Shown piece after piece: positions 2,458 to 7,914 of a DNA stretch of 8,167 bases. The first letter of the stretch is position 1, and the number at the start of each line of letters is the position of its first letter. Source of the stretch: a bacterium (GTDB lineage Bacteria > UBP15 > UBA6099 > JAJRTR01); the NCBI GenBank assembly GCA_024278215.1, contig JAJRTR010000066.1:1-8167 (forward strand), in the 5' to 3' direction. A model generated the notes under the pieces. The model did not search any database. It saw only the letters and a program-made list of their open reading frames with translations, and was not told the DNA's origin. The position numbers and the translations under genes are program-made.

Positions 2458-3106
2458 ATGAAATTTCGAAAATTTCTTATAGGATGCGGCGCAACGATTA
2501 TTATTGCCCTTAGTATTTGTGGTGCATATAGTATATATCGATTTATCCTTACCTATCTTTCAACCTTACGATTCAGACTGGCCGCGACTGAGTGAAAAGG
2601 ATCAGAAGTTCATTGATGATGTCTCGAACATGATGACGGATGCGGGGCTTTTTACCGTACACAACGATAATGATGATGAACTTGCGCAGGAGATAGACAA
2701 AGTGCGTGAATTAGAAAAGTATGTCAAAAGTAAGGAAGGCTATGTATTTGATTCCGGAGCCGTATTCAGAGAAGCTTCTTCTTTCCACATATTGACAGTG
2801 GAAGCCTATATCAAGGCTTACGATTCATACGGCGAATGCGATAAGGTCTATGAGCTTATGCCTGAATTCATAAGTATGATAAATGATGACTACCAGATAG
2901 TGGAATTATTCACCGGAGAAACAACCGATCCTGAAATGGAGACGAGTGAAGAATACTATGAGAAAAAAATAGATGAAGATGCTTTTTTAATAAGTTTATT
3001 GAGAGATCTCAAATGCAAAAGCTGTGGAATTCAGCCACATCCGTATTGGCGCCTCAAGGGGAGTTGTAACCCTGGCGCGCCACCGGATGAACCCGGCGTT
3101 GATTAG
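2458..3106 (+). pseudogene. Frameshifted membrane-anchored protein of unknown function
   Basis: Two overlapping frames appear to be halves of one gene. From ATG 2458, with a good Shine-Dalgarno, the first frame encodes a basic start and a hydrophobic helix (MKFRKFLIGCGATIIIALSI and on to IYRFI), typical of a signal anchor. It then degenerates and stops at 2595. The +1 frame carries on from about 2545 with LPIFQPYDSDWPRLSEKDQ and stays open to TAG 3104-3106. That part is an acidic, probably extracytoplasmic domain rich in Asp, Glu and Tyr. The joined product would be about 215 aa. The gene is more AT-rich than its neighbours, which suggests a different origin. The last 25 residues or so (from CKSCGIQPHPYW) look unlike the rest and lie in GC-richer DNA. 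No family is recognised. A sequencing error, a real mutation or a programmed shift could explain the break; there is no obvious slippery site. Confidence 0.6.
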
Positions 3107-4221: not shown

Positions 4222-4404
4222 CGCGACCTGTGCGGATTTTCGGGGGCATGATGTGGCTTCACGCTTTATTCGCAAGGAATTGTTATATGTCTCCGCGGGG
4301 TGGCAACGAATCATGTGTGCCAGGCCCGATCTGTTTTTGTTTGGGGGCGAACAACACTTTGACAGCATTCCGAGCGGTCCCGACGGTGTGTGCTGTATTG
4401 CAAA

Positions 4405-6906
4405 ATGACGATAATTACGAAGACAAATTCAGGCCGGGCTTATCCCGTGTTTATGCTGCTGTTTTTCAGTTGCGCTCTTTTTAGCTTTACGGCGGCTTTG
4501 CCCTGTTATGGGCTTGTTGTCGCCGAGCGTGCAGGCATTCTTTATGTGAGCGGAACAACGGTGCGTGTGCAATATGATCTGGAGTCGGGCACTTTCGATC
4601 TTCTGAGGCCGAGTGGTGAAGTAGTCATAAAGGGTGGAACAGCCGAGGCGCTGCTGTCCGGCGATGCGGGCGAAATGTATATCACGATGGCCGGCGCGGG
4701 ACGGCTTGCGTGGTTCTATTCTCCTATTGAAGATATACACGGAAAAGGGATCGAGGCGACAGTCGTCCTGCACGGCAGCGGCCCCGCGCCGGACTTTTCT
4801 CATTCGATCCGTATGTACGAGACCGCTCCGTTTATCATTTTCAGCGCGGCGGTGGAGAATTTTTCGACACACACGTTTTTTGTCGAACGTATTTCGCCGC
4901 TTGCGCTGAGAAGCGCTGACGGCGGCGGCCTGTTCCTGGGGCTCGATCCGGAGAATGTAAGGATCGCAGGCGGCGGAGGCACAGGCTCCGCGGGCGGTCT
5001 TCCCCCGGGCGGAAGCGGGCAGGGCGCGTCGAAAGAGGTGCAGCCTGAACAGGGGAATATGTTCGCGGCCTTATTTGATCCGCCGTCGGAGAGGGGCCTT
5101 GTCGGCGGCTTCCTGAGCGCGGCGACGGGCGAGCCCTTTTTTGAGATTGCGAAAACCGGCGACACGCCTGTTGAGGATGTGCGGACAGGACGCGCAGGTG
5201 TCGCGAAATTCATCGCGTCATCCGGATATTTTCCTTCAAAAAGCGTGCCGCAAAACAATGTGTTGAATTCGGAATCTCTTTATTTTGAGATCGCGTGGCA
5301 GGAACCGTTCGATGCGATGACCCGTTATGCGGAAGCTGTCGCGGCGGAGAATCACGTCGGCCAGGATGTGCTTCGCGCACAATCATACTGGTCGAGCGGC
5401 ACACAAAACAGCGGGAAAGTGAATACCCCTGAAGCAATTAAAAAGAACATCGACGCGGCGACAGCGAAGTTCGGCGCTTTCGGGCTGGACGCTATCGAGA
5501 TCGGACCCGGATGGCAGTCGAACTTCGGGGATTGGGAGCCTTCCGCCGTATTTTCCGGCAAGATGAAATCTCTCGCGGCTTACGCGAAGCTGAACGGGTT
5601 TAAACCGTCGATCTGGATATCACCTTTTCTTGTTGATCTCGATTCGAAAGTGTATAGAGATCACCCGGAATGGATTATAGAAAAGTTGTCGCCATGGGCA
5701 AACGCGAGAATGCCCGCGGGCAGGGCGGCGCTTGATATGTCACGCGCCGACACACGCGAATATGTCGGCGGGATCATTCGAAAGCTCACAGCCGACTGGG
5801 GGTTCGAGTCGCTCAGGATCGAAGTGCATCCGTGCGCGCTCGGGGCGGTGGCATACAACGCGGGCGGCAGGACCCGGATCGAGATTTTCAGGAAAGCGCT
5901 TCGCGCAATAAGAGCGGCGGCAGGCGAAGGTGTGAGAATGTCCGTCGAAGGCGCGCCGCCGGAGTTCAGTATCGGAATCGCTGATGCCGCCGGTCTGGAT
6001 ACAGAGACCAGCCAGGTCCCGGCAGGAATTGCAGAGACGGACGATTTCCTGGAACGGCGGCTTTTCGGGAATGATAGTTTACCCTTCTTTAACGGCAGTG
6101 TTCTGATATCGTCCTCCGGCAGAATCCCGGCATACGCGGGTGACGAAGACCCCGGGCGGAAACAGGAGGCGGGTGTCGACGATGAATACATGTCGTTGAT
6201 AAACGCCACAGCGATAATCGGCGGCGACATACGTATCGAGGAGGCTCCGGTTGATATCTCGCCTGCCGTGCTGAACGTTATCCGAAGGATACTGCCCATC
6301 GGTGCGCGCGCGGCTGTTCCGGTCGGTCTTTTCACGAACGAATACCCGGATGTTTACGCACTGAAGGCATCGAAGACGCACGATGTGCTGACCGCGACCG
6401 TCTTCAACCGCGACATTCTGCCGGACACAGACAGCGCGGCGAACACGAGCAATACCATTCATTTCTATTTCAGCCGCCTCGGACTTGCGCCAAACAGCGA
6501 GTGCCTGATATACGACTTCTGGAATGACGAATATCTCGGCAGTCACAAATTCGGATACTCGGCAACCCTCGCGCCGGGTGCCTCGAAAGTACTGACCATT
6601 CGTGAAATCACGGGAAGGCCACAGTTGCTGTCGACCAACAGACACTTCCCCGGTGAAGGTTCCGGCATCCTCTCCGTCGAGTGGAACAGCGAATTACTTT
6701 TTCTCAAAATTAAAATACAAACAATATCCGGGTTCGAGCACAGAATAACATTCTATATTCCTGAAGGGTTCACTTTGTTGAAAACGGCGCTCGACGGAAA
6801 GGAAACCGACGGCAATTACGATCAGAAAAGACACATTCTCGAACTCCGTTTTACGCCCGCCGCGACAGGCACCGCCGAATGGAAGCTGGATTTCGGAAAG
6901 AAGTAA
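4405..6906 (+). CDS. Secreted GH36-like glycoside hydrolase with unusual active-site residues
   Basis: This 833-aa protein has an N-terminal export signal (hydrophobic run PVFMLLFFSCALFSFTAAL, residues 14-32), an N-terminal beta-rich part, a TIM barrel from about residue 325, and a C-terminal beta-rich part from about 620. The barrel shows the alpha-galactosidase (GH36, melibiase) pattern: YWSSGTQNSGKVN, then DAIEIGPGWQSNFGDWEPS near 361-379, SIWISPFLV, and DHPEWII. The family cleaves alpha-galactosides using two aspartates. At the nucleophile position (usually K-x-D) this protein has R-I-E with Glu473, and at the acid/base position it has D-T-E-T with Glu534. Specificity may differ or activity may be altered. 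A Gly-rich segment at residues 189-207 looks like an insertion in the N-terminal part. GTG 4390 (5 residues longer) is an alternative start; neither start has a clear Shine-Dalgarno. Confidence 0.8.
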   Translation: MTIITKTNSGRAYPVFMLLFFSCALFSFTAALPCYGLVVAERAGILYVSGTTVRVQYDLESGTFDLLRPSGEVVIKGGTAEALLSGDAGEMYITMAGAGRLAWFYSPIEDIHGKGIEATVVLHGSGPAPDFSHSIRMYETAPFIIFSAAVENFSTHTFFVERISPLALRSADGGGLFLGLDPENVRIAGGGGTGSAGGLPPGGSGQGASKEVQPEQGNMFAALFDPPSERGLVGGFLSAATGEPFFEIAKTGDTPVEDVRTGRAGVAKFIASSGYFPSKSVPQNNVLNSESLYFEIAWQEPFDAMTRYAEAVAAENHVGQDVLRAQSYWSSGTQNSGKVNTPEAIKKNIDAATAKFGAFGLDAIEIGPGWQSNFGDWEPSAVFSGKMKSLAAYAKLNGFKPSIWISPFLVDLDSKVYRDHPEWIIEKLSPWANARMPAGRAALDMSRADTREYVGGIIRKLTADWGFESLRIEVHPCALGAVAYNAGGRTRIEIFRKALRAIRAAAGEGVRMSVEGAPPEFSIGIADAAGLDTETSQVPAGIAETDDFLERRLFGNDSLPFFNGSVLISSSGRIPAYAGDEDPGRKQEAGVDDEYMSLINATAIIGGDIRIEEAPVDISPAVLNVIRRILPIGARAAVPVGLFTNEYPDVYALKASKTHDVLTATVFNRDILPDTDSAANTSNTIHFYFSRLGLAPNSECLIYDFWNDEYLGSHKFGYSATLAPGASKVLTIREITGRPQLLSTNRHFPGEGSGILSVEWNSELLFLKIKIQTISGFEHRITFYIPEGFTLLKTALDGKETDGNYDQKRHILELRFTPAATGTAEWKLDFGKK

Positions 6907-6933: not shown

Positions 6934-7914
6934 GTGCCGGCGAATCTGACACCTGACTATCACAGGGCTGAAAGACAGTTCAGGGAAGCGGCGACGCCCG
7001 AAGAGAAGATCGAGGCGCTCGAGTTGATGCTTGCTGTTATCCCCAAACACAAAGGCACCGATAAGCTACAGGGCGACCTGAAGAAACGTCTCAGCAAACT
7101 GCGCAACCAGGAAGAAAAGAGAACCGGGAAGCGCGACCTTTTCCGGTTCCCCCGCGAGGGTGCGGGCCGCGCGCTCCTGGTGGGCGTGCCCAACACCGGC
7201 AAGTCCTCGCTTCTCGCGGCTCTTACAAACGCCGCGCCGGACATCGCGAACTATCCTTTCACTACGACCAGACCCGCGCCCGCCATGATGCCGTTCGAGG
7301 ACATAATGGTGCAGCTTATAGACACCGGCCCCGTGACGGATGGCCGCATCGAGAACTATCATCCCAATCTGGCACGCGGCGCCGACCTCCTCCTGTGTGT
7401 CGTCGACCTGGCATCGCCCGACCCGGCGGCGCAGTTCCACGAGACCGCCGCTGTTTTCGAACGTGTGAATATCGGTTTTGTTCACGACCTGCCGGAAAAC
7501 ATATCGCCATTCGGCATCACGCCCGTGAAGACGATAATCGTCGCCGCGAAATACGATCAGGACGAAGACGACATCCTGCTGGACGACTTCAAAGATACGG
7601 CGACGACGAACCTGGAGATATGCCCGGTATCCGCCGTAACCTGCGCCGGAATCGAGGAACTTCGGGAAATGATCTTCAGGAGACTGGACGTTGTCAGAAT
7701 CTATTCGAAGATTCCGGGCAGGACGGCGGAAATGAAATCGCCGTTTACCCTCCCCGCAGGCAGCACCGTGCAGGATGTCGCGAGAATGGTGCATAAGGAT
7801 TTTGCCGACAACCTGCGTTATGCGAGAATCTGGGGCTCCGAGCGTTTCGACGGCCAGCAGGTGCAGCGCGACTACATCGTACGCGACAGGGACATAATCG
7901 AATTGCACATGTAG
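6934..7914 (+). CDS. TGS-domain GTPase of the DRG/Obg type
   Basis: This is a 326-aa cytoplasmic P-loop GTPase related to DRG/Obg proteins, probably acting in translation or ribosome-linked regulation. The start is GTG 6934: the resulting MPANLTPDYHRAE matches the N-terminus I recall for this family, although the Shine-Dalgarno is weak. A helical, lysine-rich N-terminal region (about 1-70) precedes the G domain. G1 is GVPNTGKSS (84-92), with the switch I threonines in FTTTRP (109-114). G3 is DTGP (130-133), lacking the usual DxxG glycine. G4 is AAKYD (204-208), with alanine where NKxD has asparagine. The C-terminal TGS domain starts at PFTLPAGSTVQDVARMVHKD (from about 270) and ends with DIIELHM, as expected for an intact protein. 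The gene lies 27 bp after the glycosidase, so co-transcription is plausible. Confidence 0.88.
   Translation: MPANLTPDYHRAERQFREAATPEEKIEALELMLAVIPKHKGTDKLQGDLKKRLSKLRNQEEKRTGKRDLFRFPREGAGRALLVGVPNTGKSSLLAALTNAAPDIANYPFTTTRPAPAMMPFEDIMVQLIDTGPVTDGRIENYHPNLARGADLLLCVVDLASPDPAAQFHETAAVFERVNIGFVHDLPENISPFGITPVKTIIVAAKYDQDEDDILLDDFKDTATTNLEICPVSAVTCAGIEELREMIFRRLDVVRIYSKIPGRTAEMKSPFTLPAGSTVQDVARMVHKDFADNLRYARIWGSERFDGQQVQRDYIVRDRDIIELHM

Follow-up and report, generated by a model that had tools for sequence, protein, structure and literature searches.

A GH36-family protein with a replaced nucleophile and sugar pocket: a probable catalytically lapsed paralog in the phylum UBP15

Does a GH36-like protein that carries glutamate in place of its nucleophile aspartate work by an altered mechanism, or has it ceased to be an alpha-galactosidase? 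The question is raised by the window analyzed here, one complete contig of 8,167 bp from a 4.55-Mb draft genome of the candidate phylum UBP15. A forward-strand reading frame (positions 4390–6906) is open throughout and encodes P0001, a GH36-type protein of 838 aa. Judged by eye, its real start is likely ATG 4405 or ATG 4453, and the hydrophobic, signal-peptide-like stretch MLLFFSCALFSFTAALPCYG at the N-terminus suggests that the protein may be secreted. P0001 is GH36 by descent, as the sequence-only reading had proposed, and similarity to Melibiase and fold agree on this. It matches Pfam Melibiase (PF02065; 35.3 bits against a cut-off of 27, E 8.2e-9), a PDB sequence search retrieves 6lcj (TtGalA, E 2e-18) and 1zy9 (TmGalA, E 1.5e-12), and its predicted fold, a beta-sandwich followed by a (beta/alpha)8 barrel, resembles both enzymes with a VIA Z of about 20. 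The N-terminal beta-sandwich domain spans about residues 40–303 (4507–5300, +) by AF2 secondary structure and by VIA alignment to GH36 chains, which begins at residue 41; the barrel comprises residues 325–648, with low model confidence in its second half. Pfam and AF2 delimit a C-terminal beta-sandwich region (6400–6903, +), in which a Melibiase_C-like match at residues 671–737 lies under the Pfam cut-off.

The segment SLRIEV (P0001 474–479) contains R476-I-E478 (5815–5823, +), which replaces K325-x-D327 on the nucleophile strand, beta4, of TmGalA; E478 itself is codon 5821–5823. In every alignment, whether phmmer against TmGalA or MAFFT with near and far homologs, E478 falls on the catalytic Asp of K-x-D, and AF2 models residues 474–479 as a barrel strand. 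Elsewhere this column is nearly invariant, with Asp in 42 of the 44 other homologs, Gly in one (L062) and a gap in one (the truncated L023), leaving P0001 as the only one of 45 homologs with Glu. The nucleophile change reported by the sequence-only reading thus holds; its residue numbers, counted from ATG 4405, are five lower than ours, so that its Glu473 is E478 and its Glu534 is E539.

That reading had paired the change with a second Asp-to-Glu replacement at the acid/base position, and here the alignments split. The relevant stretch, G535-L-D537-T-E539-T (5992–6009, +), lies within GLDTETS (P0001 535–541), and either D537 or E539 (codon 6004–6006) is the equivalent of D387 of TmGalA. Ungapped alignments place E539 on the acid/base Asp, whereas D537 takes that place, with a two-residue deletion, when P0001 is aligned to its closest relatives or to the full set of canonical homologs. 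The closest relatives read G-M-R-T-G-L-D-T, and the identical G-L-D-T of P0001 falls at this point, giving D537; three profile alignments favor D537 over E539 by two to one. Whichever alignment is taken, the Arg of R-x3-D after strand 6 is gone. For the structural overlay proposed as a check, AF2 with six sequences, run on the full-length protein and on the barrel only, gives pLDDT <50 for the acid/base region (about 521–612) and 23–38 at GLDTETS, so the overlay does not discriminate between D537 and E539.

The changes extend well beyond the catalytic pair. The sugar is held in TmGalA by W190, Y191, D220, D221, W257, K325 and R383 (PMC5132143; PMC6089974). Homolog alignment shows that in the strand-1 motif WSSGT of P0001 (334–338; 5389–5403, +) G337 and T338 replace W190 and Y191, and that in E370-I-G372-P373-G-W (5497–5514, +) Gly and Pro replace D220 and D221, preceded by a Glu, E370, that is unique to P0001 in an otherwise Gln column. 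K325 has become R476, and R383 is Gly or deleted. Within the galactose-binding shell (W190, D220, D221, W257, K325, R383) only the W257 equivalent is present, as W409 (5614–5616, +), the sole conserved −1-subsite residue kept. At the end of strand 5, E520 (5947–5949, +) is likewise unique to P0001, its homologs having Cys, Val or Ala. P0001 keeps 1/8 of the conserved −1-subsite residues against 37/57 (65%) of the other conserved columns (Fisher p 0.007), a count that takes E539 as the acid/base column and becomes 2/8 with D537; L068 and L011, homologs similarly diverged overall (65–67%), keep 8/8. The barrel motifs had been described as otherwise good, which is contradicted by the loss of the W-Y, D-D, K and R pocket residues; the motifs in question (GDW, W-x-x-PF, D-W-G-F) are mostly structural.

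P0001 lacks two tested defining features of a retaining GH36 alpha-galactosidase, the Asp nucleophile in a strand-4 K-x-D and the galactose-binding shell. Nearly the entire sugar pocket has been replaced, and not two residues alone, so P0001 has probably died as an enzyme or been repurposed, rather than simply altered its mechanism. We favor, as fairly probable, the explanation that it is a secreted GH36 paralog whose catalysis has lapsed and which is retained to bind something or to fill some other non-canonical role; it would be a pseudo-glycosidase, with nucleophile Asp and binding shell missing on a kept fold. P0001 would have lost canonical alpha-galactosidase catalysis and should be unable to perform the two-step retaining reaction on galactosides; it would have been retained with its barrel or beta-sandwich domains binding a glycan or a partner, or in some other role. 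Its own genome holds two further GH36 genes, L021 and L051, both canonical, which would carry on the enzymatic function. The conservative nature of the changes on the nucleophile strand, R476 for K and E478 for D, counts against this explanation. As to the altered mechanism or substrate suggested earlier, a clean mechanistic switch is the less probable reading, and canonical catalysis has more likely been lost.

The main rival, which we consider unlikely, is that P0001 is an active glycosidase whose acidic pocket has been rebuilt: E478 would be its nucleophile or base and E539 or D537 its acid, E520 might also take part, and the substrate would be something other than an alpha-galactoside. Acidic residues do remain at or near both catalytic positions, and the glutamates E370, E520 and E539 near the pocket, the first two at columns otherwise Gln and Cys/Val/Ala, could form a new active site. 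There is precedent in GH97, a barrel family related to clan GH-D that changed mechanism: some of its subfamilies are without the strand-4 Asp, and their inverting enzymes use a Glu on strand 5 (PMC1249566; PMC2670981). The GH97 catalytic Glu lies at the strand-5 end where P0001 has E520 (PMC1249566); P0001, however, matches GH36 in sequence, and a catalytic role for E520 by analogy is speculation. Against a rebuilt pocket, the equivalents of W190, K325 and R383 and nearly all other sugar-holding residues are lost with no visible substitute, conservation of E478, E520 and E539 is seen in no ortholog, and the acid/base loop is modeled with low pLDDT.

Six further genomes of this order contain relatives of P0001, and the phylum sample contains no close ortholog. 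A contig search of genomes with P0001 alone found no relative, the same search with the canonical relatives found only the five same-phylum loci, and the viral contigs searched held no GH36 relatives. The closest full-length homologs, L003, L004 and L005 of UBP15, are 34–36% identical, align end to end, and have the length, domain order and signal-peptide-like start of P0001. Unlike P0001 they are canonical, with a K-V-D nucleophile motif and an R-x3-D acid/base motif, and among the conserved pocket residues have lost only D221, to Gly or Ala, perhaps as a first step. In a maximum-likelihood tree they are sister to a clade of P0001 and L023 (support 98/96), in which the P0001 branch measures about one substitution per site. 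L023 comes from another family of the order, on a contig that ends before strand 4, so the nucleophile is absent from its sequence; of the pocket, the W-Y segment is missing, the W257 column reads Val, and D221 is Pro, as in P0001. This clade lends some support to the distinct subfamily suggested by the sequence-only reading, but both members are long branches and their grouping may reflect attraction. We regard as doubtful the further proposal that P0001 and L023 found a GH36-derived group with a pocket rebuilt on E370, E478, E520 and E539 and an activity, glycoside processing or binding, that known GH36 chemistry does not cover. Conserved gene neighborhood was considered as a functional clue and discarded, the neighbors of L032 and L034 being unlike those in the window.

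Improbable, too, is a decaying gene, a released paralog drifting to loss without present function. The long branch, the absence of a close ortholog from the phylum sample and the repeat-rich surroundings fit this, as does a GC3 of 0.63 (above GC1 and GC2 of the same frame) against 0.68–0.70 in the paralogs, which may indicate relaxed constraint. However, over a branch of this length the 838 codons have acquired neither a stop nor a frameshift, the structural conserved columns are 65% kept, and the clade with L023 implies age. Neutral drift of L003 simulated to only 60% identity yielded a mean of 13 stops and a minimum of 7 (60 runs); P0001 has none. The intact frame and this simulation favor selection as what keeps the gene, with dN/dS coming only from the independent pair L094/L098. 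An ordinary alpha-galactosidase that tolerates Asp-to-Glu agrees with the GH36 fold and family match and is very improbable given the loss of the residues that bind O2, O3, O4 and O6. Mis-assembly or sequencing artefact, conceivable for a short draft contig with repeats nearby, is hardly credible for a single frame that aligns end to end with L003–L005, an alignment that also rules out a frameshift as the source of the odd motifs.

The lapsed paralog that we favor has counterparts in another phylum, where canonical-like relatives of the L057 type occur alongside degenerate copies of independent origin, L062 and L094/L098. Like P0001 these are full-length and have lost nucleophile and pocket residues, but the nucleophile has changed to Gly (L062) or Asn (L094/L098), not Glu. 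L094 and L098 are 91% identical with a dN/dS of 0.14 (NG86) or 0.09 (YN00), like canonical pairs, so purifying selection acts on one or more lineages of degenerate GH36. The same phylum contains a large GH36 branch (L057, L081–L092, L095, L099) with E-A-D or similar for K-x-D; there the O3/O4-binding Lys is replaced and the nucleophile Asp kept, suggesting another substrate.

Compared with TmGalA (1zy9, 5m0x) and TtGalA (6lcj), P0001 has in common the barrel fold, detectable sequence similarity and the W257 equivalent; it differs in its greater length, its signal-peptide-like N-terminus, its Glu at the nucleophile, its ambiguous acid/base and the loss of W190, Y191, D220, D221, K325 and R383. 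Lapsed glycosidase homologs are familiar from other families, for example the chi-lectins of GH18. P0001 is comparable to these, here in GH36 and recurrently: a known kind of evolution in a variant form. A literature search found no catalytically lapsed GH36 proteins, which is no proof of absence. Annotation pipelines would label P0001 a melibiase, probably wrongly. In little-studied phyla, loss of the active site has recurred among GH36 paralogs alongside surviving canonical copies, and these degenerate paralogs form a natural set for asking what role sugar-enzyme folds play after catalysis.

The window has other features. Positions 1851–2030 hold a dispersed, MITE-like element of about 180 bp with imperfect terminal inverted repeats (GAGCCGATTGCAAAATT...AATTTTGCAATTGGCTC) that folds strongly (z −7.3) and has no Rfam match. 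Its 27-mer core occurs in 216 copies (<=3 mismatches) in the genome of P0001, many at contig ends, and is absent from the phylum's six other genomes. Neither ORF 2504–3106 nor ORF 3640–4221 matches Pfam, NCBIfam or PHROGs. A TGS-domain GTPase (6934–7914; MMR_HSR1 plus TGS, Obg/DRG-like) starts 28 bp past the GH36 stop and scores far under every cut-off of the NCBIfam GTPase families. At 357–1694 lies a portal protein like that of phage Mu (Portal_Mu in Pfam, E 2e-76); near its counterpart in genome G001 (L124) is an ORF that looks terminase-like by eye. The portal protein is about 70% identical in 5/6 other genomes of the phylum, a conservation far above that of the GH36 gene.
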